DNA from: an uncultured Lachnospiraceae bacterium
GTDB lineage: Bacteria > Bacillota_A > Clostridia > Lachnospirales > Lachnospiraceae
Reading direction: 5' to 3'
Assembly (NCBI GenBank): GCA_946613735.1
Contig: CAMOFS010000006.1
Coordinates: forward strand, 1 to 15,452
Length of the DNA stretch: 15,452 nucleotides
In this document: positions 2,059 through 15,452 of the stretch, one piece after another
How positions within the stretch are numbered: the first letter of the stretch is position 1
Layout of the letters: the number at the start of each line of letters is the position of its first letter
Position numbers and translations under genes: made by a program
Notes under the pieces: model-generated
What the model saw: only the letters and a program-made list of their open reading frames with translations
Database searches by the model: none
Told to the model about the DNA's origin: nothing

Positions 2059-2061
2059 AGA

Positions 2062-3183
2062 TCAATCAATACCCTCTGACTCTATTTCATAGAACCCGAA
2101 AGAATCCTTACCCTTTTTCTTGACTTTGTACAGCGCCTGATCAGCCCTCTGGAACATGGTCTCATAGGGTACCTCCATTCCCTCAGGCTTTTCATAGGCA
2201 CCTATACTGGTGGTCACCACTATGTCCGGGCTGCCGGTAACTATACCGTGCATGCCGTCCCTGACACGGTCAAGGCAAGCCTCAACATCCGCGCGTTTGA
2301 CCTCTTTTTTGAAAAACATCATGAACTCGTCTCCACCCATGCGGCCAACGATAGCCTGATCTCCACCAACGTTGCGAAGAATGGTCGCCACACTTTTTAA
2401 AACATGGTCACCGGCAGGATGTCCTAAAGTATCATTAACATTTTTAAAGTTGTCCACATCCACTATGCAGAGTGTGCACCTCTCCTTGGAATACTTTTTA
2501 TTGTACTTAAGGAGCTTTTCCTCTACAGCACCGCGGTTGTATATCTGTGTCAGCACATCCTTTCTTGCCATCTCCTTGACCAGCTCTCCCTGGAGATAGG
2601 TGCTGTTGCGGAATTGATAGACCAGGTAGGAAAGATATATCCCCATGAACATGCCCAAAAGCGCCGCAAAAAGATTGATGGAGAATATCTCCTCGGACTT
2701 AAAAATATAAGAGGCCACGATCAGAGCCACAGACTCGATCACCGTGGAAAAGACCGAGGTATACCAGGAGAAAGTAAATGATGGTATAAAGCCTATCATG
2801 ATTGGCGCAAAATATATGGCACTCTGAGGCATCCAGGGCGGAGCCACCGATATCAGGACCACAAAAGACATCACATACAGCTGGAAGATCAGACAGGTAG
2901 CCTGCACCTCCTTGAAGCTGCGCTCCTTGTTGCGGTGTCTTAAAAATATATAAGCAACAACACATACCTGGACAATAAGCGCATCACGATATATGAAAGT
3001 GATCCCCCAGTGTGAAAACTTCAGGGGAATGATGATATTGTATGCAATAAGTATAGCTGTGTACAGTATCCCTACCGTACACAGCACTCCCTGGTTACGT
3101 TTTGCGATTGACTCAGACTCTGCCTCCAGATAATCCTTGGATATGCTGTTAAGCTGAGCCACTTCCTTGAAAACACTGTCCAT
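2062..3183 (-). CDS. Membrane-bound GGDEF diguanylate cyclase
   Basis: The 373-residue protein would make cyclic di-GMP from two GTP. Residues about 33-190 are hydrophobic with about six membrane helices, an uncharacterised MASE-like sensor. The C-terminal GGDEF domain starts near residue 205 (ARKDVLTQIYNR), has the metal-site segment VDVDNFKNVNDTLGHPAGD (first Asp about 242) and an intact signature GRMGGDEF with GGDEF at 283-287, so it should be catalytically active. The inhibitory I-site RxxD normally found five residues before GGDEF is absent (GDQA in its place). The start is supported by GGGGAG about 5 bases upstream of the ATG. It lies 46 bases downstream of the chemoreceptor with no convincing terminator between, and its TGA stop lies in the same frame as, and one codon before, the kinase start. 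Confidence 0.93.
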   Translation of the reverse strand: MDSVFKEVAQLNSISKDYLEAESESIAKRNQGVLCTVGILYTAILIAYNIIIPLKFSHWGITFIYRDALIVQVCVVAYIFLRHRNKERSFKEVQATCLIFQLYVMSFVVLISVAPPWMPQSAIYFAPIMIGFIPSFTFSWYTSVFSTVIESVALIVASYIFKSEEIFSINLFAALLGMFMGIYLSYLVYQFRNSTYLQGELVKEMARKDVLTQIYNRGAVEEKLLKYNKKYSKERCTLCIVDVDNFKNVNDTLGHPAGDHVLKSVATILRNVGGDQAIVGRMGGDEFMMFFKKEVKRADVEACLDRVRDGMHGIVTGSPDIVVTTSIGAYEKPEGMEVPYETMFQRADQALYKVKKKGKDSFGFYEIESEGID

Positions 3184-3229
3184 GGCCGCTCCCCATGCGG
3201 TGACTGACTATACCGAACTCTCCGGTCTT

Positions 3230-4987
3230 TTATTCCTGCTCTATCGCTTCTGTGGAGATCTCGGATGCATCTACCTTGAACTCCTTGATTATGCGATCGA
3301 GATCATTGGCTGACTGGCTGACATTGTTGCCGTTTTCTGCCAGTATCTCAACACTGGTGTTAACGGTATCTGTGGTGGCATTGAGCTCCTGGGCCGTTGC
3401 GGCATTCTCTTCTGAGATAGCCGACAGATTCTCGATAAGCCCGGATATATTGGCAACACCATCGCTTAAGTTCTGGTTGGCCGCGTGAAGCTCGTCCACG
3501 GTAGAGTTAATGTTCTGGATGCCGTTGGCAATATCGGCAAAGCTGTTGCTGGTCTCCTCCACAGCCTCCTTCTGTCGGCTGACATATTCACGCACATTCT
3601 CACTCTGTTTGGCCGCATTGTCTGTATTATGCTGAAGGTCAGCTAACATCTCATTGATGATATTGACTGAATTGGCCGACTGCTCTGACAGATCCCTGAT
3701 CTCGTCTGCCACAACTGCGAAGCCCTTGCCTGCCTCTCCCGCACGGGCTGCCTCGATAGAAGCATTGAGCGAAAGCAGGTTGGTCTGGCTGGCAATGGAT
3801 GAGATAAGATCCGAAGCCTCGGAGATCTTTTTGGTAGACTCCTCAATACCGTCAATAACCTCAAATATCTCCTCAAAAGCCGTAACACTCTGGTCTGTAA
3901 TGGTCTTAAGGCCTTCCACTCTCTGGAGTCCCTCATCCGTAACCTGTCGGATCTGAGCGGAAACCTCCGCAAGAGTATTGGCATTAGAGGAGTTCCTTTG
4001 CATCATCTCGTCCACGGTGGACATATGGCTGGCAATGTCCGCAATATCCGTAGCCTGTGATGTGGCTGTGTTGGCCAGCTCTGATGCAGCGCTGTTGATA
4101 TGGGCGATGGAACCTGAAGTCTCCGAAGTGCTATGCCCCATCTGGGTGGAGGACTCAGCAAGTGCCATGGATGATCCCTGGAGCATGGATATCATCTCCA
4201 AAAGGTGACCCTGAACATCCCTTGCCGCACGGTTAAGTGTGCAGATCTCATCTGTACCCTCCAGAGGCTTGATGGTGTCTGTAAGGTCGTTTTGGGCAAT
4301 AGACTCGATCTTGCCGGTAACATAGGCAAGATTGGTTCTTATATATCGGATAATATAGATGGCAAATACCACCACAACAAGAAGGATCACTATGATGATC
4401 GCAATGATGGAAATAAGTTTGGTATGGATCTCAGACTGCAGCTGTCCCTTTTCATAGGAGGCATAACTCTCAACCACCTCACCCATAGCGTCAATGGGCT
4501 CACGGACCATAACAAAATAGGTATCGGCCTGCTTGTACTTGTTGGTGGTAAGCCCCTGGGGATTGGCCAGATCCTGCCACGCCTTAAAGTTGGACTCGAA
4601 CTTCTCTATGGAAGAATTGATATCATTACCATCCGAGGAATACTTGCCGAGGTCGGGATACTTTTCAACTATCGCCTTGATGCTCTGGACTCCGTCATAG
4701 GTCTGCTGTGCATTCTCCGCAAAGCCATCAGTATAATCTGCAGAAGGCTCATTGCCGGACATGATCTCACCAAAGGCCTGCTCCTGGGCCAGTCTTGCCT
4801 GATACAGGTCACGGTCTGCCGTGATCACAAGATCCGTAACATTGAAAAGCTGCTCATAATAAATCTTTTCGGACTCTTCCATGGCATCGTTGACCTCAGA
4901 CGCCAAAAGCAGCATTCCTATGATAGCAGCAATCAGCATGGGCATTGCTGCCAGCATAAGCTTAACGCGGATAGATAAATTCTTCAT
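3230..4987 (-). CDS. Methyl-accepting chemotaxis protein
   Basis: This is a 585-residue transmembrane chemoreceptor that would control CheA/CheW at the membrane. I chose the ATG at 4987 because GGAGGG lies 5 bases before it; an in-frame ATG 21 bases upstream would place that site inside the gene. TM1 spans about residues 9-29. A helical extracytoplasmic domain of about 160 residues follows (30-190), compatible with a four-helix-bundle sensor. TM2 (about 191-213) is followed by HAMP (about 214-265). The cytoplasmic signalling domain has the conserved hairpin tip [19 protein letters not shown] at about residues 411-429. No C-terminal receptor-tether pentapeptide was seen. The ligand cannot be predicted. 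It is the first gene of an operon with a diguanylate cyclase and hybrid kinase. Confidence 0.95.
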
Positions 4988-4992
4988 GTTAA

Positions 4993-4998
4993 CCCTCC
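4993..4998 (-). promoter_or_regulatory. Ribosome binding site fixing the chemoreceptor start
   Basis: The minus strand reads GGAGGG, 5 bases before the ATG at 4987. This favours that ATG over the in-frame one at 5008. Confidence 0.85.
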
Positions 4999-5032
4999 AT
5001 TCCCTCAAAAACCTGCGTCTGTTTTAGTAAAG

Positions 5033-5092
5033 AATTCTGATATTATCAAAGAAAACGCATAATAATTATAATACAACGCAAATTACTTTGCC
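5033..5092 (-). promoter_or_regulatory. Candidate promoter region of the chemoreceptor operon
   Basis: The stretch between the glycosyltransferase stop (5104) and the chemoreceptor is very AT-rich and contains TATAAT on the minus strand (plus 5065-5070). The hexamer 17 bases upstream is TGGCAA, a poor -35. A second box, TTTGATAA (around 5046-5053), recalls the -10 of motility sigma factors but lacks a good TAAA at the right distance. The gene order makes a promoter likely here; the exact element is not resolved. Confidence 0.3.
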
Positions 5093-5103
5093 ATTAAAAA
5101 TCT

Positions 5104-6123
5104 TTAATTGAAGCCCATGATCCTCTGGGAGACCTTGTATGCCTTGACGGACAGATACCGTCCCAGCCGCCCCGGAAGGTTCATGGATCCCCCCATAACA
5201 CCGTACCTAAGATGCCTGTAGGTACGCCTGTCCTTATCTTTTATATATTTCCACAGTTTTTTTACCTTGGCCAGATTCACCGGATCGCGGCTTACATATC
5301 CGATGGCCGATGATACAACAGTGATGGTCTCGAGATAAGAAAGCATGTACTTTCTTAGATGATCATCGATGTCCATCTCATACAGATTGTAAGCATCGAT
5401 CATGAGGTAATTGACCTTGAGCTGTTGGTCTATGCGGGAGATCATGATCTGCTCCGTGACCGACTGCCCCTCTCGCCCGATAAAATACCTGTAAAAGTCC
5501 ACATCCAGATAATAAAGTGTCTTAACGTAAGGCAAAGGAATGTATACGAAAAGATTGTCCACATAAAAGGTGTGTTCCGGCAACACCAGCCCACACTCGC
5601 GCAGCATCTGCGTCCTGTAGGTAACCGAGTGCATGAGTATGGAAAAGCCTCTGATATTGTGCTTCATGCCATCCCATCCGATGACCTCTCCCTTGGGGAA
5701 AAGCGGGCCGTAGAACATCCTGCGATGCTGATCCGTGGAGATCTTTTCATATACGTAATTAGTCAACAGCATGTCAACCGGAGTGCCTGCATCCACAAGC
5801 CGGTGAAGGGTATCCAAAACCTGCCTGTATGCATCGGGATCCACCCAGTCGTCCGAATCCACCACCTTGTAATACATACCACTGGCAGCGGCAAGCCCCG
5901 CATTGACTGCGGAGCCGTGACCGCCGTTTTCCTTGTGGATAACCTTTACTATGTCAGGATAATGTCTGGCATAGGAATCGGCAATATCTCCGGTATTGTC
6001 CATAGAGCCATCATCCACGATGATGATCTCAACGTCATCTCCACCGGGGAGCAATGACTCTATGCACTTTCCCATATATGCAAATGAATTGTAGCATGGT
6101 ATTGCAAAGCTTATAAGCTTCAT
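5104..6123 (-). CDS. Family 2 glycosyltransferase (GT-A fold)
   Basis: The 339-residue protein begins with the classic GT2 N-terminus: ISFAIPCYNS, then EIIIVDDGSMDNT with the nucleotide-sugar-binding Asp pair at 37-38, and VVDSDDW (89-93) as the metal-binding DxD-like motif. It would transfer a sugar from a nucleotide donor in the cytoplasm, probably to a cell-envelope or exopolysaccharide acceptor. The C-terminal third is basic (KKLWKYIKDKDRRTYRHLRY) with no membrane helix seen. The SD GAGGAC lies 5-6 bases before the ATG and abuts the crotonase stop 11 bases upstream, so the two genes are probably co-transcribed. No linked polysaccharide genes are in the window, so donor and acceptor remain unknown. 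Confidence 0.92.
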   Translation of the reverse strand: MKLISFAIPCYNSFAYMGKCIESLLPGGDDVEIIIVDDGSMDNTGDIADSYARHYPDIVKVIHKENGGHGSAVNAGLAAASGMYYKVVDSDDWVDPDAYRQVLDTLHRLVDAGTPVDMLLTNYVYEKISTDQHRRMFYGPLFPKGEVIGWDGMKHNIRGFSILMHSVTYRTQMLRECGLVLPEHTFYVDNLFVYIPLPYVKTLYYLDVDFYRYFIGREGQSVTEQIMISRIDQQLKVNYLMIDAYNLYEMDIDDHLRKYMLSYLETITVVSSAIGYVSRDPVNLAKVKKLWKYIKDKDRRTYRHLRYGVMGGSMNLPGRLGRYLSVKAYKVSQRIMGFN

Positions 6124-6134
6124 AAAATGTCCTC

Positions 6135-6938
6135 TTAGAAATCAGTAAGTTCTGCTGCACGCTTCTCTAAGAATGCGCCCATGCCTTCCTTTTTGTCGTG
6201 TGTGTCATTGACCACTCCGAAGAGATTAGCCTCCATCTCAACTGCGTTATGGATGTCCATATCATAACCGTTGTTGATGGCAGCCTTAGCAACTGCGTTG
6301 GCATAGCTTCCCTTTGAAATGATCTTCTTAGCCATAGCCTCACAGGTAGGATAAAGCTCCTCAGTGGAAACAACCTTGTTGACAAGACCGATGCGGTATG
6401 CCTCCTCTGCGTTGATGTTATCGCAGGTAAAGATCATCTCCTTGGCACGGCCCATACCTACAAGACGCGCAAGTCTCTGTGTGCCGCCGAAGCCGGGAAT
6501 GATGCCCAGGCCTGTCTCAGGCTGTCCGAAAATGGCATTATCAGAAGCGATCCTGATATCACATGCCATGGCGATCTCGCAGCCACCGCCCAATGCAAAG
6601 CCGTTAACTGCAGCGATGGTTACCTGTCTCATCTCCATAAGCTTGAAGAAAGGCTTGCTTGCCTTGATGCCGAAAGCCCTTGCCTCGGGTGCAGTAAAGT
6701 TGACCATCTCGGAGATGTCAGCCCCTGCCACGAAAGACTTGTAGGGATTATCCTTTTTGTCGGGACCGCCTGTAAGGATGACTACCTTGACGTCATCTCT
6801 TGCCTCAATCTCATCCAGAGCCACTGTAAGCTCCTCAAGTGTCTCGGAATTGAGCGCGTTAAGCGCTGCGGGACGTGAGATGGTAAGTCTTGCGATCTCG
6901 TCTGCTACCTCAAGCTTAAGATTCTTGAAATCTGCCAT
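6135..6938 (-). CDS. crt: Crotonase: 3-hydroxybutyryl-CoA dehydratase / enoyl-CoA hydratase
   Basis: At 267 residues this is a normal-length crotonase. It would hydrate crotonyl-CoA or dehydrate 3-hydroxybutyryl-CoA, in clostridia a step of the butyrate pathway. Visible family features are SRPAALNALN near the N-terminus, the oxyanion-hole segment FVAGADISEM (69-78), NGFALGGGCEIAMACDIRIAS with catalytic E121, and FGQPETGLGIIPGFGGTQRL with catalytic E141. The 20-residue spacing of the two glutamates is that of the family. The sequence is close to what I recall of Clostridium Crt. A perfect SD (AAGGAGGG) lies 6 bases before the ATG. The usual thl, hbd and bcd-etf partners are not adjacent; instead a glycosyltransferase follows. 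It has its own promoter and sits behind a terminator. Confidence 0.93.
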   Translation of the reverse strand: MADFKNLKLEVADEIARLTISRPAALNALNSETLEELTVALDEIEARDDVKVVILTGGPDKKDNPYKSFVAGADISEMVNFTAPEARAFGIKASKPFFKLMEMRQVTIAAVNGFALGGGCEIAMACDIRIASDNAIFGQPETGLGIIPGFGGTQRLARLVGMGRAKEMIFTCDNINAEEAYRIGLVNKVVSTEELYPTCEAMAKKIISKGSYANAVAKAAINNGYDMDIHNAVEMEANLFGVVNDTHDKKEGMGAFLEKRAAELTDF

Positions 6939-6959: not shown

Positions 6960-7006
6960 TATCATTTGGAGCCCCCTTGGCTCCCTCTAAACTAATCTAA
7001 ATGATA
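6960..7006 (-). repeat. Nested inverted repeats upstream of the crotonase
   Basis: Outer arms TATCATTT (6960-6967) and AAATGATA (6999-7006) are perfect 8-bp complements. They enclose an inner hairpin GGAGCC/GGCTCC (6968-6973 and 6979-6984, 5-base loop). The outer right arm overlaps the proposed -10 box, so the outer pair may be an operator, while the inner hairpin would lie in the 5' leader close to the SD. No U-run follows, so it is not a terminator. Confidence 0.5.
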
Positions 7007-7029
7007 CTAAATATCAGGTAAAAAAGCAA
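7001..7029 (-). promoter_or_regulatory. Candidate sigma-A promoter of crotonase-glycosyltransferase
   Basis: On the minus strand, TTGCTT (plus 7024-7029) is followed after exactly 17 bases by TATCAT (plus 7001-7006). The -10 matches TATAAT at five of six positions; the -35 is weaker and lies within the U-tract region of the upstream terminator. Initiation would fall near 6994, giving a leader of about 55 bases with the GGAGCC hairpin. Confidence 0.5.
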
Positions 7030-7058
7030 CAGAAAAGAGGGCAGCCAATGCCGCCCTC
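7020..7058 (-). terminator. Rho-independent terminator after the DUF4867 gene
   Basis: On the minus strand, GAGGGCGGC-ATTG-GCTGCCCTC forms a 9-bp stem with one G-U pair and a 4-base loop. It is followed by TTTTCTGTTGCTTTTTT. It begins 12 bases after the DUF4867 stop codon and ends the sulfosugar operon. Confidence 0.9.
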
Positions 7059-7069
7059 CAAAGACCGTA

Positions 7070-7786
7070 TCAATAAGATAATTCTTTGTTTTCTCCTATA
7101 ATACCCGGATGGGCACCCTGCTTTATAAGAGGCTCTCTTTCGGGATGGGCGATGACCCATTTGTTCTTTTGGAGTAAAAGCTTTTTCTCCGGATCCTCTC
7201 CAACCATTTTCGCATCGCCGCAGTTACAGCCCTCGGGCCTCTTTTCCAGGGGAGTGTTGGTCCCACGCGGCAGTACGACTATTCCTCTGAAGCCTTCGTC
7301 TGTAACCTTGAGGGGGCTTAAGTGGAGCGTGGTCTCATACATCTCAATAGCACATCCCTCCGGCACAAAGAAAACCTTTGCATCCCGGTTGTCGTAGGTG
7401 TTGTCGGATATCTCCCAGACATGTCCCAGCACCAGCATAAAATCACAACAGGCTACGTTGATCTCACTTCCCTTGTGGTATTCAAAGCCGTTGTAGGTGG
7501 AGTTTTTGCCGTTACAGTAACCGATCTGTATGGGCATGCCGCCATAGACCACGTCTGTTAAATATTGGAAGACAGCCTGCTGCTCCAGCCTCTCATCCGA
7601 GGGAACATAGACATTGCCCTCTGCAGGGATGTCGGTATACTGTACCATATAACGGATGGCGTCGGAAAAATCAACGCCTTTAAGTATACGGCCGTAGCTT
7701 TTGAACTCCTCATCCTCCACGGAATAGATCTTTACATCATTTACTTCGTTGAGATGCTCTAATAATCTGTTTTGCTTAGCATTCAT
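7070..7786 (-). CDS. DUF4867 cupin-like protein in a sulfosugar operon
   Basis: This 238-residue protein matches my memory of the Bacillota-specific DUF4867 family; its biochemical role is unproven as far as I know. I chose the ATG at 7786 (TGGGGT 6-7 bases upstream) over an in-frame TTG at 7801. Its core looks like a double-stranded beta-helix: FEYHKGSE (H104, E108) resembles the first cupin metal motif, and VFFVPEGCAIEMYETTLHLSP (E151, H155) the second. A small Cys-rich segment, CNCGD, lies at 187-191. No signal peptide or membrane helix is seen, so it should be cytosolic. It follows the transaldolase and is separated from it by a terminator hairpin. Context suggests an accessory step on a sulfosugar, for example anomer interconversion or isomer repair; this is inference. 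Confidence 0.8.
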   Translation of the reverse strand: MNAKQNRLLEHLNEVNDVKIYSVEDEEFKSYGRILKGVDFSDAIRYMVQYTDIPAEGNVYVPSDERLEQQAVFQYLTDVVYGGMPIQIGYCNGKNSTYNGFEYHKGSEINVACCDFMLVLGHVWEISDNTYDNRDAKVFFVPEGCAIEMYETTLHLSPLKVTDEGFRGIVVLPRGTNTPLEKRPEGCNCGDAKMVGEDPEKKLLLQKNKWVIAHPEREPLIKQGAHPGIIGENKELSY

Positions 7787-7799
7787 ATCGTTACCCCAC

Positions 7800-7831
7800 A
7801 AAAAAAGAGGCAGAGGATAGTCCTCCGCCCC
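7800..7831 (-). terminator. Intra-operon terminator between transaldolase and DUF4867
   Basis: On the minus strand, GGCGGAGGA-CTA-TCCTCTGCC forms a 9-bp stem with one G-U pair, extendable by one or two pairs. It is followed by CTCTTTTTTT. It starts 12-14 bases after the transaldolase stop, and its U-run ends only 13 bases before the DUF4867 ATG at 7786. It probably reduces expression of DUF4867 relative to the upstream genes, by readthrough. Confidence 0.85.
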
Positions 7832-7842
7832 CCTGATAATTC

Positions 7843-8529
7843 TTAGTTTCCAGCTGTGTTATCCCATGCAGCGGTAAATCTGCCCATGCCCATATCTGTG
7901 TAGGGATGTGCAATAGCATCCTTGTATACAGCCAGGCCTGCAGTCACGATATCAGCTCCTGCTGCCGCACAGTCAACAAACTGCTTGGGTGTACGGATGG
8001 CAGCGCAGATGATCTCGGTCTCACGAAGCCAGTCAAAGTTAGCATAGATGTCAACGATGTCCTGGATATACTGTCTGCAGTCCTCGCCATTGGCTTCCTT
8101 CCAGCCGATGAAGGGAGATACGAACTTGCAGCCAAACTTTCCTGCCCAGATAGCCTGTGCAGGGGAGAATACCAGTGTAAGGTTGGTACGGATGCCCTCC
8201 TTTTCAAGCTTACGGGCAGCCTCTACACCACCGGGGATGCAGGGGATCTTGATAACAAAGCAGGGTGAAATGGCATGCAGCTCACGAGCCATCTTCATGA
8301 TGTCCTCTGCAGACTCGAGATGAGGATTAACCTCAACGGAGATAGGAAAATCATTGTAGTCCTTGAAGCCCTGCTCCTTTGCCCAGTCTGCCATGTCCTG
8401 AATGGCTGTTAAGAAGGGCTTGCCTGAATTCTGAATATGCTTGGGATTGGTGGTAACACCATCGATTCCAAAGGTCTCATAAGCCTCTTTGATCTCGTCC
8501 ATTTTTGCACTGTCCAAGAAATACTTCAT
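7843..8529 (-). CDS. sftT: FSA/TalC-type transaldolase, probable 6-deoxy-6-sulfofructose transaldolase
   Basis: The 228-residue protein has the length of the small transaldolase/fructose-6-phosphate aldolase subfamily. Conserved features are MKYFLDSA at the N-terminus, DGVTTNP (23-29), VEVNP, the Schiff-base lysine K94 in FVIKIPC, NLTLVFSPAQA and AGADIVTAGL. In the context of a GH31 sulfoquinovosidase homologue, a fucose-isomerase-like enzyme and a HIBADH-family reductase, the likely reaction is cleavage of 6-deoxy-6-sulfofructose. It would release sulfolactaldehyde and pass the dihydroxyacetone unit to glyceraldehyde-3-phosphate to give fructose-6-phosphate. The family usually has S or T after TTNP; here it is K30. 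A strong SD (AGGAGG, 7 bases from ATG) overlaps the stop of the ROK gene 11 bases upstream, showing operon coupling. A plain TalC or FSA function for non-sulfonated sugars is the alternative. Confidence 0.85.
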   Translation of the reverse strand: MKYFLDSAKMDEIKEAYETFGIDGVTTNPKHIQNSGKPFLTAIQDMADWAKEQGFKDYNDFPISVEVNPHLESAEDIMKMARELHAISPCFVIKIPCIPGGVEAARKLEKEGIRTNLTLVFSPAQAIWAGKFGCKFVSPFIGWKEANGEDCRQYIQDIVDIYANFDWLRETEIICAAIRTPKQFVDCAAAGADIVTAGLAVYKDAIAHPYTDMGMGRFTAAWDNTAGN

Positions 8530-8540
8530 TTTTCTTCCTC

Positions 8541-9662
8541 CTATACTATGTAGTTTAAAAATTTGTTAAGGGGCATCGCCAGTGGCTCTAAATGATCGCT
8601 CTTGATACCCGGTTGCGACCCAACTATAAAATCGTCATCCTTTTCGATGTCGTATCCCCGGTAGATATTTCTGAATCTTTCTATCATCCCGGGCACCTCA
8701 AATATATATCCTAACACAATTATCCTGTCGGGGTCAATAAGTGCGACGGCATTTCTGAGCATCTGTGCCAGCATATCCATCTTTTCATCCATTATCGATG
8801 CCACCGCAGGGTCTCCCAAAAGCATGATATCCCCGGCATACCTGCTGTCTTCACCCAGGGTACGCTTTATATCCGCCCGGATGGCCCGGGTGGATATACA
8901 CGCCTCTAGGCTGGTTTTTTTATCCCTTCCCAAGGTAGTATGTCCTATCTCGCCGGCTGCATTAAAGGAACCATTGTAGATCTGAGACTCCAGGATCATG
9001 GCAGAACCAACTCCGGGACCCCACTTCAGAAGAAAAAGATTCTTTTCCTCCCTGCCCCTGCCAAATAAAAGCTCAAGCTCCGCGGCAGCCTTGATGTTAT
9101 TTTCCACCATCACCTCCACGCCCAGGCTTTCTTTGATCATATCCGCTATGGGGATGCTCCGCTTCCAGATGTTGTTGGCACTTTCGCTTACACCTTTTTC
9201 GCTGTCCACTTTTCCCGGCACGGTAACGCCCACAGGTAAAAGCATGTCTTTTGAGATACCCCTGTCCCATAAAAGCCTGCCGGCCCGGTCGGATACCTCC
9301 TTCAAAAATGCCTCCGGGCTAGAGCTTTCCTCAGTTTTAAGCTTAAGTGCATCGATGACATTTCCCTTCATGTCGGTAACGCTTATTACCGTCACGTCCG
9401 TTTCTATGGCCACGCAAAGGATCTTTTTATAATCCTTGTTGATATCCACCAGGATCTTTTTCCTGCCGGCCCTCTTTTCCTCCGCAGCTTCACCCAGCTC
9501 CACAATTATATTTTTTTCCAAAAGCTCAGAGCAGATAAGAGTAACGGAGGCTGCCGTAAGTCCCACAGCCTCCGCTATATCCTTTCTTGACATGGCTCCG
9601 TTGTTATTGATCAGTCTAAGCACTGCAGACTGGTTGGAATATTTTACATGTTCCAGATTCAT
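8541..9662 (-). CDS. ROK-family transcriptional regulator
   Basis: The 373-residue protein has an N-terminal winged helix-turn-helix (about 8-60: VLRLINNNGAMSRKDIAEAVGLTAASVTLICSELL) joined to a ROK sugar-binding domain (from about 80: VAIETDVTVISVTD; VGVTVPG at 144-150; GEIGHTTL at 238-244). Two usual ROK residues are changed. The ATP-site/catalytic Asp in the EnD motif is Asn (ENNIKAAA, 187-194), and the CxCGxxGC zinc motif after GHTTL is missing (DKKTSLEACIS instead). It is therefore a non-kinase repressor type, probably with sulfoquinovose, sulfofructose or a phosphosugar as inducer. It lies inside the operon it probably controls, 14 bases after the isomerase stop; an SD-like GCAGGA lies 6 bases before the ATG. 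Candidate operators are the two inverted repeats at 11911-11931 and 12023-12043. Confidence 0.92.
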   Translation of the reverse strand: MNLEHVKYSNQSAVLRLINNNGAMSRKDIAEAVGLTAASVTLICSELLEKNIIVELGEAAEEKRAGRKKILVDINKDYKKILCVAIETDVTVISVTDMKGNVIDALKLKTEESSSPEAFLKEVSDRAGRLLWDRGISKDMLLPVGVTVPGKVDSEKGVSESANNIWKRSIPIADMIKESLGVEVMVENNIKAAAELELLFGRGREEKNLFLLKWGPGVGSAMILESQIYNGSFNAAGEIGHTTLGRDKKTSLEACISTRAIRADIKRTLGEDSRYAGDIMLLGDPAVASIMDEKMDMLAQMLRNAVALIDPDRIIVLGYIFEVPGMIERFRNIYRGYDIEKDDDFIVGSQPGIKSDHLEPLAMPLNKFLNYIV

Positions 9663-9676
9663 GAAAAGTCCTGCTC

Positions 9677-11017
9677 CTAATACCTGTAAACCTCAAGGCC
9701 CAGCATGTTGCCCAGCTTTTCCAGCTCGTCGCCTACCCTGTCATAGATCACCACATAATGAGGCTCCCAGCCGTTTTTGATGGTATCCTCCACTATCCAC
9801 TCCGCAGGGGTGTCGGTCTTGACCACGATGGACGCACCATTGAACTGTCTGGGCTTATCCATGATACTTCCCTCGGCGATGAAAAATCTGAACTCTCCCT
9901 CGGGAGTACGGCCCACCCTGAAGATGGTGGCATTCTCAGAAGCCTCGCAGCCGAAGTCCATGACCGGTCCGATCTTTCTGTTGGGATGAACTCCCACGCA
10001 GGCTCCGGTGTCCTTTCTGGCAAGGTTTGTGGCAGCCATGCCGCAGTGCCAGTAGGTGATGGATCCTTCCTTTTCATCCATGGATACGGGATCACCAAAG
10101 AAGGTGGCTCCTCCGGTAAGTGCGGTGCCAATGTACATGGAGAGCGCTCCGTAGACATCGGCCTCACAGCTGGCTGGTATGTTTGCCGCATTTAAAAGGG
10201 AAAGCACCATACATACCGGCGTACCAAATTCGGTAAAAAAGTCAGGCCAGCACCTGGAAGATACCGCACCGATATTATTCTCATTTACATATGACTTGTA
10301 TGCCTTGTAAAGTCTCGCAAAATCCTTAACGTTCTGTTCGGGCATTGTGTCCAGACCCACGACCTGGCTTTTTGCCTCCTCAAGATCCCCGGCACATTCC
10401 TCATCGGAATATGCTTTTGCCTTGTTGATAAGCTCCCTGGCCTCGATAGCCTCAAGCGTCACACCAAAGACGGAAAGTATCTCCGCATCCAGTGCGCGTC
10501 CGAAGCCAAAGCCCTGCGGGGTGTGACCTATAGCAGAAAGCTTAAGGGTTGTAAGCTGTTTTTTAACTTTTGCGGCTGCGATAGTAGCCCTGATCTGATC
10601 ACCGGCAGCCTCCTCGTCAGCCGAGCCGAATACGTGCTCAAAGCTGCCGGGGCCCCTGAAGGCGCAGATGGCATTGGCTGCGGAATATGCACCGGTAAGG
10701 GAATTACTCCTGAGCCTGCCTCCGTCGATCACCGGCTCTCTGAGTGTCCAAAGCAAAATGGGGCAGTCAAAACGTCGGAGCACCTCGCTGGCATAGGCAG
10801 CATTTGCAAAGGTGATATTCTGGAGGATCACAAGATCCGGGGTTTTGTCGGAAAGGTAGTCAGCCACTGCATCCACGGTAAGAAGGATGTCCCCGGGCAC
10901 CACCACGCTTTCATCAATGGAGTGTAAAAGCTTTACAGACCTGTCAAACTGCTCATGGGCAGTTACCATCTCATAGGTACCCACACCGATGGGTACATAA
11001 ACAACCTGAAATTTCAT
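9677..11017 (-). CDS. sftI: L-fucose isomerase-like protein, probable sulfoquinovose isomerase
   Basis: The 446-residue protein belongs to the L-fucose/L-arabinose isomerase-like group (COG2407 type). The N-terminal half is a Rossmann-like sugar-isomerase domain (MKFQVVYVPIG...; TPDLVILQNITF). The catalytic half shows SRCWPDFF (254-261), SCEADVYGAL with E285, FFGDP with D309, YWHCGMAA with H324 and EPHYVVIYD with H420. The E285-D309 spacing of 24 equals that of the metal-binding catalytic pair E337/D361 in E. coli FucI, as I recall it. Given its neighbours, the expected reaction is sulfoquinovose to 6-deoxy-6-sulfofructose, a divalent-metal-dependent aldose-ketose isomerisation. An SD (AGGGAG) overlaps the end of the reductase gene only 2 bases upstream. 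L-fucose or another deoxysugar as substrate cannot be excluded from sequence, but no fuculokinase or fuculose-phosphate aldolase is present. Confidence 0.85.
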   Translation of the reverse strand: MKFQVVYVPIGVGTYEMVTAHEQFDRSVKLLHSIDESVVVPGDILLTVDAVADYLSDKTPDLVILQNITFANAAYASEVLRRFDCPILLWTLREPVIDGGRLRSNSLTGAYSAANAICAFRGPGSFEHVFGSADEEAAGDQIRATIAAAKVKKQLTTLKLSAIGHTPQGFGFGRALDAEILSVFGVTLEAIEARELINKAKAYSDEECAGDLEEAKSQVVGLDTMPEQNVKDFARLYKAYKSYVNENNIGAVSSRCWPDFFTEFGTPVCMVLSLLNAANIPASCEADVYGALSMYIGTALTGGATFFGDPVSMDEKEGSITYWHCGMAATNLARKDTGACVGVHPNRKIGPVMDFGCEASENATIFRVGRTPEGEFRFFIAEGSIMDKPRQFNGASIVVKTDTPAEWIVEDTIKNGWEPHYVVIYDRVGDELEKLGNMLGLEVYRY

Positions 11018-11019
11018 TT

Positions 11020-11880
11020 TTATCTCCCTTCACGGACTACCTTGATGGTTGCGCAGAAATCTTCCTTGCCGATACCCATTTCAAGGGCCTTGTCATACAC
11101 GCGGGCCGCGTTTTCCTCTCCGGGCATATCCACGCCGCACTCCTCGGCCAGCTTAAGACAGATATGTACGTCCTTGTGCTCGTTCTCGATGGAAAACGCA
11201 GTGGTGTAGTCCTCCTTCGAGAGAACATCCTTTTTTGAATCAAGATACCAGTTGCCGGCTCCACCGTAGGAAATAGCCTCGGCATAGGTCAAAATATCAA
11301 TGCCGTTTTTAGCTGCCAGGGTGGAGGTCTCATTTACACCATTCTGGATCTGGGACACCAGGGCGTTGTGACAGATCTTCATTACCAGTCCCTTGCCGTT
11401 GTCACCCATGCGGATGATGTTCTCTCCCATATAGGAAAGGATGGGCAGTGCCTTCTTATAATCCTCCTCGGATCCGCCTACATATATTCCGAGCTTGCCG
11501 GCGATAGCTGCAGGCTTGCTCTTTACAACAGGAGCATCTATGAAGTGTGCACCGGTCTTTTTTACCATCTCGGAGATCTCCACGGAAACAGAAGGGTCGA
11601 TGGTGCTCATGTCTATGCAGAACTTGCTGTCATCAAGCACGGAAAGTATACCTTCATATACAGCACGGGAATGCTCGCTCTTGGGGACCATAGAGATGAT
11701 GACATCAGAGTTCTTTGCCAGCTCCACTGAATCCTTGCAGGCTACGGCGCCCTTTGAAGCCAAAAGCTCAACCTTTTCCTTAACAAAGTCAAATGCATAC
11801 ACTGTATCGTCATGTTTCTTTACGATATTCTCACACATTGACTCGCCCATGATACCAAGACCGATAAATCCGATTTTCAT
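11020..11880 (-). CDS. HIBADH-family dehydrogenase, probable 3-sulfolactaldehyde reductase
   Basis: The 286-residue protein is a normal-length beta-hydroxyacid dehydrogenase, the family of E. coli YihU, the known sulfolactaldehyde reductase. Residues 4-12 (GFIGLGIMG) form the dinucleotide-binding loop; DAPV (115-118) opens the substrate loop; GKGLVMKICHN carries the catalytic lysine K168; SIENEHKD continues the C-terminal helical domain. It would reduce sulfolactaldehyde with NAD(P)H to 2,3-dihydroxypropane-1-sulfonate. The ATG at 11880 is chosen because AAGGAG lies 7 bases before it; an in-frame TTG at 11898 would overlap this site. It is the first gene of the minus-strand operon, with a promoter and operator directly upstream. 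The substrate loop has K120 where I recall R123 in YihU. A generic hydroxyacid dehydrogenase (GarR or GlxR type) is the alternative. Confidence 0.85.
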   Translation of the reverse strand: MKIGFIGLGIMGESMCENIVKKHDDTVYAFDFVKEKVELLASKGAVACKDSVELAKNSDVIISMVPKSEHSRAVYEGILSVLDDSKFCIDMSTIDPSVSVEISEMVKKTGAHFIDAPVVKSKPAAIAGKLGIYVGGSEEDYKKALPILSYMGENIIRMGDNGKGLVMKICHNALVSQIQNGVNETSTLAAKNGIDILTYAEAISYGGAGNWYLDSKKDVLSKEDYTTAFSIENEHKDVHICLKLAEECGVDMPGEENAARVYDKALEMGIGKEDFCATIKVVREGR

Positions 11881-11887
11881 AACTGCT

Positions 11888-11893
11888 CTCCTT
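11888..11893 (-). promoter_or_regulatory. Ribosome binding site fixing the reductase start
   Basis: AAGGAG on the minus strand lies 7 bases before the ATG at 11880. It rules against the in-frame TTG at 11898. Confidence 0.85.
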
Positions 11894-11910
11894 TTCAACT
11901 AAAAAACTGG

Positions 11911-11931
11911 TTGATTAATTGCTTTAACCAA
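11911..11931. promoter_or_regulatory. Operator-like inverted repeat 1 (reductase side)
   Basis: TTGATTAAT-TGC-TTTAACCAA is an imperfect inverted repeat of two 9-base half-sites around a 3-base spacer; seven of nine positions are complementary. It starts just downstream of the -10 box of the reductase promoter and covers the expected start of transcription. It shares its geometry and half-site type with the repeat at 12023-12043, as expected for binding of one dimeric repressor, probably the ROK protein. Confidence 0.65.
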
Positions 11932-11936
11932 ACAAT

Positions 11937-11964
11937 ATAATACACCGATTTTCTGAGAAGTCAA
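11937..11964 (-). promoter_or_regulatory. Promoter of the sulfosugar operon (reductase to transaldolase)
   Basis: On the minus strand, TTGACT (plus 11959-11964) is followed after 16 bases by TATTAT (plus 11937-11942), each matching the sigma-A consensus at five of six positions. Transcription would start near 11930, inside operator 1, giving a leader of about 50 bases. Confidence 0.75.
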
Positions 11965-11995
11965 TACATTTTTATTGAGAATTTTCATTTTATTG

Positions 11996-12024
11996 TTGAC
12001 GATTAGCTGTTTGTGGTATATATT
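11996..12024 (+). promoter_or_regulatory. Promoter of the DASS transporter gene
   Basis: TTGACG (11996-12001) and TATATT (12019-12024) are separated by exactly 17 bases, five of six matches each. Transcription would start near 12031, inside operator 2, leaving a leader of about 32 bases. Confidence 0.8.
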
Positions 12025-12043
12025 AATTAAACACTTTAATTAA
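12023..12043. promoter_or_regulatory. Operator-like perfect inverted repeat 2 (transporter side)
   Basis: TTAATTAAA-CAC-TTTAATTAA is a perfect 9-bp inverted repeat with a 3-base spacer. It overlaps the last bases of the -10 box and the expected transcription start of the transporter gene. Together with operator 1 the half-site consensus is roughly TT(A/G)(A/G)TTAA(A/T). Binding here should block the promoter directly. Confidence 0.75.
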
Positions 12044-12050
12044 ATTGATC

Positions 12051-12058
12051 AAGGAGGG
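12051..12058 (+). promoter_or_regulatory. Ribosome binding site fixing the transporter start
   Basis: AAGGAGGG lies 4 bases before the ATG at 12063. It favours that codon over the in-frame TTG at 12045, which lies upstream of the site. Confidence 0.85.
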
Positions 12059-12062
12059 CGTA

Positions 12063-13490
12063 ATGGATAACAAAAAGAGGGTAATCAAGCTGATACTCGG
12101 ACCGGTGTTATATCTTATTATGAGTATGGGACTGGGGAAAACCGGTATCATGGACTATACTGCTGCAAAGGGCATCGGTACGGCTCTGTGGATGATATAC
12201 TGGTGGGTGTCCAGACCCGTGGATATTACGGTGACCGCACTTTTACCCGGAGTGATCAACGCTCTCTTTTCCATCGTTCCCATGGAAGATGTGATATCCC
12301 AATACGCTTCCGGAAGCATCATACTTATCTTCGGCTCCTGTCTTTTGACAGCCCCCTGGAGTGAGATAGGACTTGATCGGCGGATCTCCCTAAAGGCCCT
12401 CTCCCTCATCGGACCTTCCATGAAATCTCAGATCACGGTCTGGCTTTTGGCCGCCGTGGTCCTTTCCAATATGATGCCCAACGTGGTCGTCGTAGCCATC
12501 TTTACCCCCATAGCAGTGTCCATGCTGGCAGCAGCGGGCTATGAAGATATCAAAAAATGTGAGGCTGCCACACCAATTCTTTGCGCCATAGCCTGGGGCT
12601 CCCAGGTAGGAGGAGCAGGGACTCCCCTGGGAGGCGCCATGAACATCACAGCCATTGCTTTTATCGAGGAGTTTACCGGCAGGGAGTTCATGTATGTGGA
12701 CTGGCTAATACGCATGCTTCCCTATACCGTCATTGCTACCGTAGCAGTACTGGCCACCATGCTTCTTAAGCCCATGGAGACCACCTCACTCTCCGGTACA
12801 AAGGAATACTTCGAAAAATGCTATAAGGAGCTGGGGCCCATGAAAAAGGACGAGAAGATAAGCCTGGTGCTTTTTATCATCGCCATGCTCGGTTCCTTTG
12901 TACGCCCTCTTTATGCCGATCTTCTGCCGGGACTGGTTCCGGCCTATCTGTTTTTGATATTGGGATGTGTGAACTTCGTGATCATATCCGCCGAAAAAAA
13001 GGATATGCTTTTGACCTGGGACAAAGCCCAGCGGGAAGTTATGTGGGGAATGCTTTTGCTCTTTGCCGGAGGACTGGCACTGGGGCAGATACTCACGGGC
13101 TCCGGCGCCAATGACGCCATAGCTTCCTTTGTATCCGGCATGAACCTTTCCGGCGGCTTTGGTACGGTACTGATCTTTGCAGTATTTGCCTGCCTCATTT
13201 CAGAGATGACCAATTCCACCGTATCCGCAGCAGTCACCCTCCCCATCGTCATCGGGGTGACTCAGAAAATGGGACTTAATCCCATCCCCTATATTTTCAC
13301 AACGGCCATGGCCATGAACTTCGAATCCATACTCCCCGTCAGTGTGAGAGCCATCCCCGTGTCATACGGGCTGGATCCCGGCAGGCTCATGAAAAACGGT
13401 ATCGTGGTGGCCCTGATCCGCATGATAGTGGCAGTAGTCATAGGATACCTTACCATGCTCATCTGGCCAGGTTTCGGTACCCTAAGCTAA
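12063..13490 (+). CDS. DASS/SLC13-family anion transporter, probable sulfosugar or sulfonate carrier
   Basis: The 475-residue integral membrane protein has about 11-12 hydrophobic segments and the two-fold pseudo-repeat of divalent anion:sodium symporters. Each half has a hairpin motif: SNMMPN followed by GSQVGGAGTPLGGAMN in the first, and MTNSTVSAAVTLPI in the second. The second is the family SNT-like sodium-site motif; the first departs from the usual SNTAT. The C-terminal MNFESILPVS region also fits the family. Classical substrates are dicarboxylates or sulfate; in this cluster uptake of sulfoquinovose or its glycosides, or export of dihydroxypropanesulfonate, is likely. It is transcribed divergently from the catabolic operon, under a promoter with a matching operator. 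The GH31 gene converges on it with a 20-base gap. Confidence 0.9.
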   Translation: MDNKKRVIKLILGPVLYLIMSMGLGKTGIMDYTAAKGIGTALWMIYWWVSRPVDITVTALLPGVINALFSIVPMEDVISQYASGSIILIFGSCLLTAPWSEIGLDRRISLKALSLIGPSMKSQITVWLLAAVVLSNMMPNVVVVAIFTPIAVSMLAAAGYEDIKKCEAATPILCAIAWGSQVGGAGTPLGGAMNITAIAFIEEFTGREFMYVDWLIRMLPYTVIATVAVLATMLLKPMETTSLSGTKEYFEKCYKELGPMKKDEKISLVLFIIAMLGSFVRPLYADLLPGLVPAYLFLILGCVNFVIISAEKKDMLLTWDKAQREVMWGMLLLFAGGLALGQILTGSGANDAIASFVSGMNLSGGFGTVLIFAVFACLISEMTNSTVSAAVTLPIVIGVTQKMGLNPIPYIFTTAMAMNFESILPVSVRAIPVSYGLDPGRLMKNGIVVALIRMIVAVVIGYLTMLIWPGFGTLS

Positions 13491-13510
13491 CCACTTTATG
13501 TCTTTTTATC

Positions 13511-15452
13511 TCACTCCTTAGCTACAGCCATAAGCTCATCAAACATGGTACTGCCGCGCCTTACAAATACAGGAGGCTGTCCAATGGGCGCTTCCACCTC
13601 AAAGGTACCGCCGGTGTACTCCCTGCCGGTAAAGATATTTACCCAGGTATCGTTCGGGAAGTATACCTGCCTGGATGTTGCTTTTTCACGATATACCGGA
13701 GCCACCAAAAGATCTGCCCCCAAAAGGTACTCGGTCTTTTCGGTATATGCATAGCTCTCGTTATAGTGATAAAAAAGAGGTCGCATTACAGGAGTACCGT
13801 GAGACTGTGTCTCCGCCGTAAGCCGCATGAGATAAGGCTTTAATGCGGCGTGCATACGGGAACATCTGGCAGTAAAATCTATAAGCTCTTTGTCATCATA
13901 CCACTGAACGTCATTGACGGGCTGGTTGCCCTCATGGGTGCGTAAAAGTGGTGTGAAAACATCCATCTCCATCCATCTTAGCAAAAGCTCCTTACTCCTG
14001 GATAAAAGCTTGCCATAGGTGGTATATCCACCGGCATCCGAATGTGTGATGCCATATCCGCTCATGGCCAGCGACAACGTAGCCGGCACCACGGATATGA
14101 GTCCGTCGTCAACGGACCAGTCCACATGCTGGTCTCCGGTCCACATCATAGTAGAAGCATCTATAGTTCCGGTATGTCCTGCCCTGGTAAAAAAGAAGAC
14201 CTCTCCCTCCTTACCGCTTTCCACTATGGCCTCACGATTAAGCCGCGCCCAGATAGCCGGCCACTTGTTGTGGATCACCTCGGGATCCTCACCGCTGTAC
14301 AGCACGGCATCCACCGGCAGATACTCACCAAAGTCAGCCATCCATCCACCCATGCCGATGCCGATCATGTTGTTTTTGATAAGATCCTTGTACCATTCAT
14401 AGGCGGCCGGATTTGTAAAATCTATCATGGCCGCGGGGAAGGTAGTTATGGTCACCAGGTAATCCTGCCCCTCCTTGTTCTTGACACAGTATCCCTTTTC
14501 TGAGGCCTCCTTGTATATCTCCTTTTCTATGGCAAGGAAGGGATTGATGTATCCCAAAAAACGGATGCCCTGCTGCCTCCATTTTTCTATCTGCTCCGTA
14601 AGTCCCGGATACAGCTCCCTGTCGCTGATCCAGTTCCACATTACCTGGTATCCGAAGCCTGTCCGTCTGCACCCGCTCCAGTCCTGGGACCAGATCCCGC
14701 AGATCTTTCCTCCGGCTCTTACGGCCATCTGTATCTTTTCGTCCACCCTGGACGTCCCCTCCTGGACCGCCAGGATGGCGCCATCGTATATCCACTCAGG
14801 CAGGGGCTGCGCTGCTCCGGTATCGGCCCAGCTATGCACCGTGCCGACTGTTTTGGAAAGCTTCTCTGAGACCTCCGCAAAGGTCTTGCCGCTCTCCGTC
14901 ACCAGATGAGGCGGCTGCTGCAGATACAGGGTGATCTTGTCCGGTCTGGTAAAATCAAACTCACTGTAAGCGTCCGTATAGACATGCATGTAGTATTTTT
15001 TCGAGCTGGTAAAGGTGGGCTGGGCATAGTATGACTCATAGGAGGAAAACTTCCCGGTCCGCTCCGGCTGGGGACCCACGATGCGGCCCACAGTAGCCCT
15101 CTTGATCACCTTTTTGGATATGCGGCCCACGTTCTGATGCTCAGCCACCCATACCCTGACCTTTTCTCCCTTGAGGTCAAACTTGGAATAGGTCTCTCCA
15201 CAGCCGTAAATATGCTCCCCGGGATCAGTATCAAAGGTGATCCAGTAGCGATTCACCTCAGGCTTAACTTCCCCCACATAATCCAGCGTCATCCTGTCAT
15301 TTTTTTCTTTGATGACGGTCTCATGGCCTCCCTCAAACTTAAAGGACAACCCATTGGGATCCTCTCTTTTTGATACGACTTTGAGACTCTTTTTGCCCTC
15401 GATCTTTTGCTTATATGAAAAGCTTCCCCTGTTCATGGTAAAAGCGTTCTCT
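13511..15452 (-). CDS. sftG: GH31 alpha-glycosidase, sulfoquinovosidase (YihQ) homologue (probably 5'-partial)
   Basis: An in-frame ATG lies at 15436 (641 residues from there), but no SD precedes it. The frame is open to the right edge, and that methionine (MNRGSFSYK) aligns with an internal segment of E. coli YihQ (MFRGNFSIK), so some 40-50 N-terminal residues are probably outside the window. Numbering from this Met, the nucleophile is D368 (GGWMADFGEYLP) and the acid/base D435 (MWTGDQHVDW). All compared sites align to YihQ with a constant offset of 37: Q225, Q251, W267 and Y471 match YihQ Q262, Q288, W304 and Y508, whereas YihQ R301 is Q264 here (GYQVMWNW). No signal peptide is visible in the part seen. 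It would release sulfoquinovose from sulfoquinovosyl glycerol or diacylglycerol. Another alpha-glycoside is possible given the Arg change. Confidence 0.9.
   Translation of the reverse strand, partial: ENAFTMNRGSFSYKQKIEGKKSLKVVSKREDPNGLSFKFEGGHETVIKEKNDRMTLDYVGEVKPEVNRYWITFDTDPGEHIYGCGETYSKFDLKGEKVRVWVAEHQNVGRISKKVIKRATVGRIVGPQPERTGKFSSYESYYAQPTFTSSKKYYMHVYTDAYSEFDFTRPDKITLYLQQPPHLVTESGKTFAEVSEKLSKTVGTVHSWADTGAAQPLPEWIYDGAILAVQEGTSRVDEKIQMAVRAGGKICGIWSQDWSGCRRTGFGYQVMWNWISDRELYPGLTEQIEKWRQQGIRFLGYINPFLAIEKEIYKEASEKGYCVKNKEGQDYLVTITTFPAAMIDFTNPAAYEWYKDLIKNNMIGIGMGGWMADFGEYLPVDAVLYSGEDPEVIHNKWPAIWARLNREAIVESGKEGEVFFFTRAGHTGTIDASTMMWTGDQHVDWSVDDGLISVVPATLSLAMSGYGITHSDAGGYTTYGKLLSRSKELLLRWMEMDVFTPLLRTHEGNQPVNDVQWYDDKELIDFTARCSRMHAALKPYLMRLTAETQSHGTPVMRPLFYHYNESYAYTEKTEYLLGADLLVAPVYREKATSRQVYFPNDTWVNIFTGREYTGGTFEVEAPIGQPPVFVRRGSTMFDELMAVAKE

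Follow-up and report, generated by a model that had tools for sequence, protein, structure and literature searches.

The sulfofructose transaldolase pathway of sulfoquinovose (SQ) breakdown, named sulfo-SFT or sulfo-TAL, is known from gut bacteria. According to PMC11968277, the sulfo-SFT cluster of Eubacterium rectale has been described, and Clostridium symbiosum ATCC 14940 has the complete gene set. The DNA considered here, 15,452 nucleotides from an uncultured Lachnospiraceae bacterium (contig CAMOFS010000006.1; this whole stretch is called the window), contains a cluster of seven genes at positions 7070-15452. Six of them lie on the minus strand, and the gene of a DASS-family transporter alone lies on the plus strand, as given by the list of open reading frames. 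Judging from the sequences, this is an ordinary sulfo-TAL locus of anaerobic gut Clostridia, and the core pathway is already known, since close orthologues occur in the described sulfo-SFT clusters. New here are the clade of the GH31 glycosidase, a palindrome predicted to be an operator, and a transporter proposed to export dihydroxypropanesulfonate (DHPS).

Core enzymes of the locus

The seven genes named in the original prediction are all open frames, each matching its Pfam family: DUF4867 (E-value 6e-74), TAL_FSA (2e-39), ROK (1e-27), Fucose_iso_C (5e-8), NAD_binding_2 (1e-41), CitMHS (3e-41) and Na_sulph_symp (3e-34) in the transporter, and Glyco_hydro_31_2nd (2e-39). The assignment to sulfo-TAL is supported for the reductase, isomerase, transaldolase and DUF4867 protein, which are respectively 79%, 69%, 67% and 61% identical to those of C. 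symbiosum ATCC 14940 (locus L052). The GH31 protein is 42% identical and belongs to a separate clade. The earlier claim that all core steps from the glycoside to DHPS are present thus keeps the gene set of the later steps and is overstated for the first one, because of this low identity and because the clade lacks the arginine corresponding to Arg301 of Escherichia coli YihQ.

Gene neighbourhoods were compared in the best 80 of 121 transaldolase relatives found in genome contigs, ranked by likeness to the window transaldolase. As this sample was picked by likeness and many of its loci are contig fragments, absences in it are soft. Both the reductase and the isomerase are present in 61 of the 80 loci, and thus the gene set is no chance grouping.

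Comparison with characterised sulfo-TAL enzymes supports the transaldolase, whose best match among solved structures is BmSF-TAL (8bc3; 6e-80, 57% identity), the first other transaldolase in the ranking being 1vpx (2e-45). It retains Lys94, equivalent to Lys89 of BmSF-TAL, and 33 further polar positions. The isomerase stays below the cut-off of its model, and at E 0.001 none of the solved structures is related to it in sequence. A plasmid home for the isomerase was dismissed: 16 plasmid records match, all at less than 60% identity. The reductase belongs to the HIBADH family; the YihU model gives 160 of 348 bits, and other models score better. The Arg123 and Lys171 sites of YihU are presumably functional. 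The former holds a lysine in the window reductase and in 59 of 60 relatives (the remaining one has X), and the latter is kept in 60 of 60. The DUF4867 protein contains the motif E-x-H-x3-E and a further histidine, with the spacing of the 2His-2Glu metal site of Bacillus megaterium SqvB (E97, H99, E103, H150). PMC11968277 assigns no function to DUF4867.

Nine other loci (L030, L032, L036, L039, L040, L041, L065, L068, L078) have a transaldolase 61-65% identical to BmSF-TAL and neither isomerase nor reductase. The frames downstream of it are of like length, and in most of these loci it lies at or near position 10001. In L039 these frames encode relatives of triosephosphate isomerase and lactate racemase (Lar_N) and an NMT1-type ABC transporter. 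Possibly, these loci represent another sulfosugar pathway.

The Q-type clade of GH31

We take Arg301, Trp304 and Tyr508 of YihQ to be the residues holding the sulfonate, and QQRWY/KERWY to be the published sulfonate-site signature of sulfoquinovosidases (SQases). The window GH31 protein scores 746 bits with the PRK10426 model (cut-off 553) and has the GH31 fold and the catalytic pair of aspartates. Its residues D368, D435, Q225, Q251, W267 and Y471 correspond to D405, D472, Q262, Q288, W304 and Y508 of YihQ. The Arg301 site, in contrast, is occupied by Gln264, and glutamine is found there in 30 of 30 aligned rows of this type (below, the Q type). The window therefore reads Q225, Q251, Q264, W267, Y471 and departs from the signature at Arg301, whereas all four solved SQases in the alignment (E. 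coli YihQ, 8r56, 6pnr, 5ohy) have arginine. The residue-level match to YihQ, on which the original prediction partly relied, fails at this point, and the neighbouring active-site loops are altered as well. A literature search, with subscription journals mostly outside its coverage, found no paper on the signature or on Arg301, and none on R301 among the matches listed.

In a tree of 47 rows, the 30 Q-type proteins and 15 proteins with arginine (R type, including YihQ) form two groups, with forks at 97/97 and 99/99. The types also differ at V97, A98, H100, Q101, N102, R105, K109, Y263, T329-T332, A335, A336 and H437, while both catalytic aspartates, Trp267 and Tyr471 are conserved in all 45 rows. 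In the 80 loci, 42 GH31 genes have Tyr-Gln at the Arg301 site and 16 are of the Arg type; L043 has one of each, and the fragments in L008 and L021 are unreadable at this site. Tyr-Gln is also present in 120 of 120 database relatives of the window protein among the matches listed (4818 were found). By these sequence comparisons, the Q-type proteins are an unrecognised sister clade, apart from the tested SQases. They would be glycosidases that supply sulfoglycolysis and bind their substrate in a rebuilt pocket. The fold scores and the tree speak against an ordinary alpha-glucosidase or alpha-xylosidase of GH31. Arg258, at the position of YihQ Met295, was considered as a stand-in for Arg301. It is present in 24 of the 30 Q-type rows and is no general replacement, because the other six have Cys, Lys or Val.

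Distribution of the two types

YihQ models count Q-type proteins as ordinary sulfoquinovosidases. A sweep of 397 genomes from a single family, the one to which G004 belongs, found the GH31 superclade (E 1e-100 or better) in 26 genomes, with 29 genes. Of these genes 12 are of the R type and 17 of the Q type; the latter include an Arg-Gln variant (L110) and a Lys-Gln variant (L120/L133). An SQ isomerase (E 1e-60) turned up in all 12 R-type genomes, in 16 of the 17 with the Q type and in one (G215) of the 371 others. Of the 17 Q-type genomes, 14 have pathway genes close to the GH31 gene. The three exceptions are G085 and the genomes G244 and G301, in which the isomerase sits away from the Q-type gene; no transaldolase was found in G244 or G248. 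Among the 80 loci, Q-type genes in sulfo-TAL clusters include those of Butyrivibrio sp. FCS014 (L012) and VCB2006 (L014).

Five genomes contain both types (G005, G006, G076, and G174 and G301, the last three coming from this sweep). A Q-type gene can join a cluster that already holds a canonical SQase (L043) or sit elsewhere in the genome, as in G005, where the R-type gene is in the cluster and the Q-type gene lies apart with a gene of a GPH symporter. In G174 the genes near the Q-type GH31 encode a transaldolase and transketolase-like proteins, the latter named by eye. By its gene content, this locus (L130) shows that the Q-type clade also reaches a cluster of the sulfo-TK/TAL type. It holds an Fe-ADH-like gene, two genes resembling transketolase halves (by eye) and a 60% identical transaldolase. 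In L001 (6678-7493), the Q-type gene is adjoined by a co-directional gene for a hydrolase with weak matches to Peptidase_S9 and Hydrolase_4, which might serve as an esterase for acylated SQ-glycerol.

Candidate operator

The 182-base gap between the reductase and DASS genes contains a 21-base palindrome, TTRRTTAAA-N3-WTTAAYYAA, in two places (three matches, as one place is counted on both strands). Each lies at the -10 box of one of the two highest-scoring promoter matches in 7000-15452 (score 10 of 12), overlapping it by two bases in one case and starting five bases past it in the other; 200 shuffles of the window contain no palindrome. Six sites of the window and of loci L002 and L003 served to define the pattern. 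In the 80 loci (1.29 Mb) it has 26 sites in 23 loci, 22 of them independent given this derivation, and 20 resampled sets have none. All sites lie near the 5' ends of sulfoglycolysis frames: 17 before GH31 (one of these, in L034, in a divergent gap where the nearest frame is another gene), four before the transaldolase, three before DASS and two before the reductase. Since all 26 precede sulfoglycolysis genes, the palindrome is probably the operator of the ROK repressor encoded in the cluster, and it may serve as a search pattern for the regulon. The start and promoter of the window GH31 gene lie outside the window because the gene runs past its edge; the frame has 641 residues, compared to 662 in a 99%-identical relative (P0001). 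No paper linking sulfoquinovose with the ROK family was found in a literature search that left subscription journals mostly uncovered.

Transporters

Among the 61 loci with reductase and isomerase, GPH symporters (at least 60% identity) occur in 23 of the 39 Q-type-only loci and in none of the 14 R-type-only loci, whereas TctA of the tripartite tricarboxylate transporter (at least 40%) occurs in none of the former and eight of the latter. L043, which has both GH31 types, has both transporters; the other seven loci have no readable GH31 gene.

The DASS protein scores 140.7 bits with TIGR00785 (cut-off 198.6), and its CitMHS and Na_sulph_symp matches are above the Pfam cut-offs. DASS is present in six of the 61 loci, none of which has TauE, and TauE is present in 34 of the remaining 55. 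That DASS never occurs alongside TauE suggests that it exports DHPS. No paper on DASS in a sulfoquinovose pathway was apparent from titles in the literature search. The DASS gene opposes its neighbours in the window, being divergent from the reductase, and is co-directional with them in L002 and L003. This may be a local inversion or an effect of assembly; the palindrome precedes DASS in all three.

Possible mechanism and alternatives

Taken together, we consider it rather probable that the cluster forms a sulfo-TAL regulon under ROK repression in a gut Lachnospiraceae-like bacterium, with a Q-type GH31 enzyme at the first step and DASS exporting DHPS. The Q-type enzyme, with its pocket lacking Arg301, would cleave a sulfoquinovoside, presumably releasing SQ, which the isomerase would turn into sulfofructose. 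The transaldolase would transfer the dihydroxyacetone part of sulfofructose to glyceraldehyde-3-phosphate, yielding fructose-6-phosphate and sulfolactaldehyde; the reductase would convert the latter into DHPS, and DASS would carry it out of the cell. The ROK protein may occupy the palindromes at the -10 boxes and be released upon binding a pathway sugar.

Several observations, besides the replacement of Arg301, weigh against this scheme. The sole NCBIfam match of the isomerase, "sulfoquinovose isomerase", is full-length, but its 397 bits fall short of the cut-off of 700. Eleven loci have a transaldolase with identical conserved residues and neither isomerase nor reductase within the stretch retrieved, and thus the transaldolase by itself is not diagnostic. 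Both the isomerase and the transaldolase were missing from the search results for one Q-type genome, G085. The promoter matches are no commoner than in shuffles (2 vs 1.4), the palindrome at this strictness is absent from 57 of the 80 loci, and no GPH symporter is seen in the close relatives G001-G003, which are metagenome-assembled genomes.

The main alternative concerns the first step. The core may be sulfo-TAL while the Q-type enzyme lacks the specificity of YihQ and cleaves some other glycoside, either another SQ conjugate or one of a sugar bearing a different group at C6, so that a second kind of substrate would feed the cluster. The loss of Arg301 together with the coordinated changes (H100-Q101-N102, R105, K109, Y263-Q264, T329-T332, A335-A336, H437), which separate 30 of 30 Q-type from 15 of 15 R-type rows, speaks for such a difference, as do the coexistence of the types in five genomes and their association with different transporters. 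However, Q-type genes are nearly limited to genomes with the SQ isomerase, they head the operon downstream of the palindrome (17 of 26 sites), and they retain the catalytic aspartates, Trp267 and Tyr471; on balance we regard this alternative as rather unlikely. A related reading, likewise rather unlikely, is that the Q-type proteins form a second class of sulfoglycolysis glycosidases with a substrate of their own, another sulfosugar conjugate held by Gln264 and a rebuilt loop (His100, Arg105, Lys109), and form a unit with the GPH symporter.

Returning to the ROK-repressed regulon with DHPS export, its last step has an alternative as well. DASS could be an importer, or could exchange SQ (or its glycoside) for DHPS, instead of simply exporting DHPS. 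In favour of this, the clusters of the window and of L002 and L003 show no other transporter, the genomes of L001-L003 yielded no GPH symporter, and some DASS proteins, such as CitT, are antiporters. On the other hand, in L027, L043, L074 and L077 DASS lies beside a GPH or Tct importer and TauE is missing, so that we find import or exchange doubtful. That the locus breaks down a non-sulfonated sugar is compatible with the family names alone, and DUF4867 is known from non-sulfo clusters too, as PMC11968277 states. This reading is very improbable: the nearest relatives of the transaldolase, isomerase and DUF4867 protein belong to sulfo clusters, and at the position of YihU Arg123 the reductase still has a basic residue.

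Other features of the window

Candidate features are listed in Table 1. On the minus strand, terminator-like hairpins are seen at 7804-7834, between the transaldolase and DUF4867 genes, and at 7036-7059, past DUF4867; the region contains 12 terminator-like matches, compared to 7.7 in shuffles. No structured RNA matched at the gathering score. Positions 1-6938 hold unrelated neighbours: a hybrid sensor kinase, a GGDEF protein and a chemotaxis receptor (these three named by eye), a GT2-type glycosyltransferase and a crotonase (NCBIfam).

Table 1. Genes and predicted sites of the cluster
Feature	Position	Strand	Comment
Putative GH31 glycosidase, Q type, YihQ relative	13511..15452	-	Gln264 at Arg301 site; 5' end cut at window edge
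DASS-family transporter, candidate DHPS exporter	12063..13490	+	TTG opens frame at 12045; ATG at 12063 chosen
Predicted ROK operator before DASS	12023..12043		Overlaps last 2 bases of TTGACG-17-TATATT promoter match
Predicted ROK operator before reductase	11911..11931		5 bases past TTGACT-16-TATTAT promoter match
Putative sulfolactaldehyde reductase, SftR/YihU-like, HIBADH family	11020..11880	-	Family models, related loci
Putative sulfoquinovose isomerase, SftI/SqvD type	9677..11017	-	Pfam, NCBIfam
ROK-family regulator, candidate cluster repressor	8541..9662	-	Pfam, NCBIfam, related loci
Putative sulfofructose transaldolase, SftT/SqvA type	7843..8529	-	Pfam, solved-structure match, conserved residues
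DUF4867 cupin (SftX/SqvB)	7070..7789	-	Pfam; metal ligands E103, H105, E109, H156 retained

Comparison with known systems

YihQ homologues are used as a marker of sulfoquinovose-freeing bacteria. Of the 29 such genes in the sweep of one family, 17 are without the arginine demanded by the signature; therefore either the signature is drawn too tightly or the marker picks up a different activity. PMC13219744 reports a long branch of rumen yihQ variants, separate from the A. rectalis/C. symbiosum cluster, that makes up 64% of 1220 and 47.5% of 1548 variants; this branch might be the Q-type clade.

The window shares with the sulfo-SFT clusters of E. rectale and C. symbiosum the orthologous isomerase, transaldolase, reductase and DUF4867 protein. 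The predicted DHPS branch is also alike, with a putative reductase and, within the window, no sign of an aldehyde dehydrogenase. It differs in the GH31 protein, which comes from the other clade, and in DASS, which replaces the TauE and Tct genes of these clusters. Compared to the GH31 SQases YihQ, SftG, BmSQase and AtSQase, Arg301 is changed to Gln jointly with the active-site loops. In a subset of another SQase family a sulfonate-site residue is changed as well, but that residue binds through its backbone and the site is intact, whereas in the Q-type GH31 proteins a charged side chain is lost.
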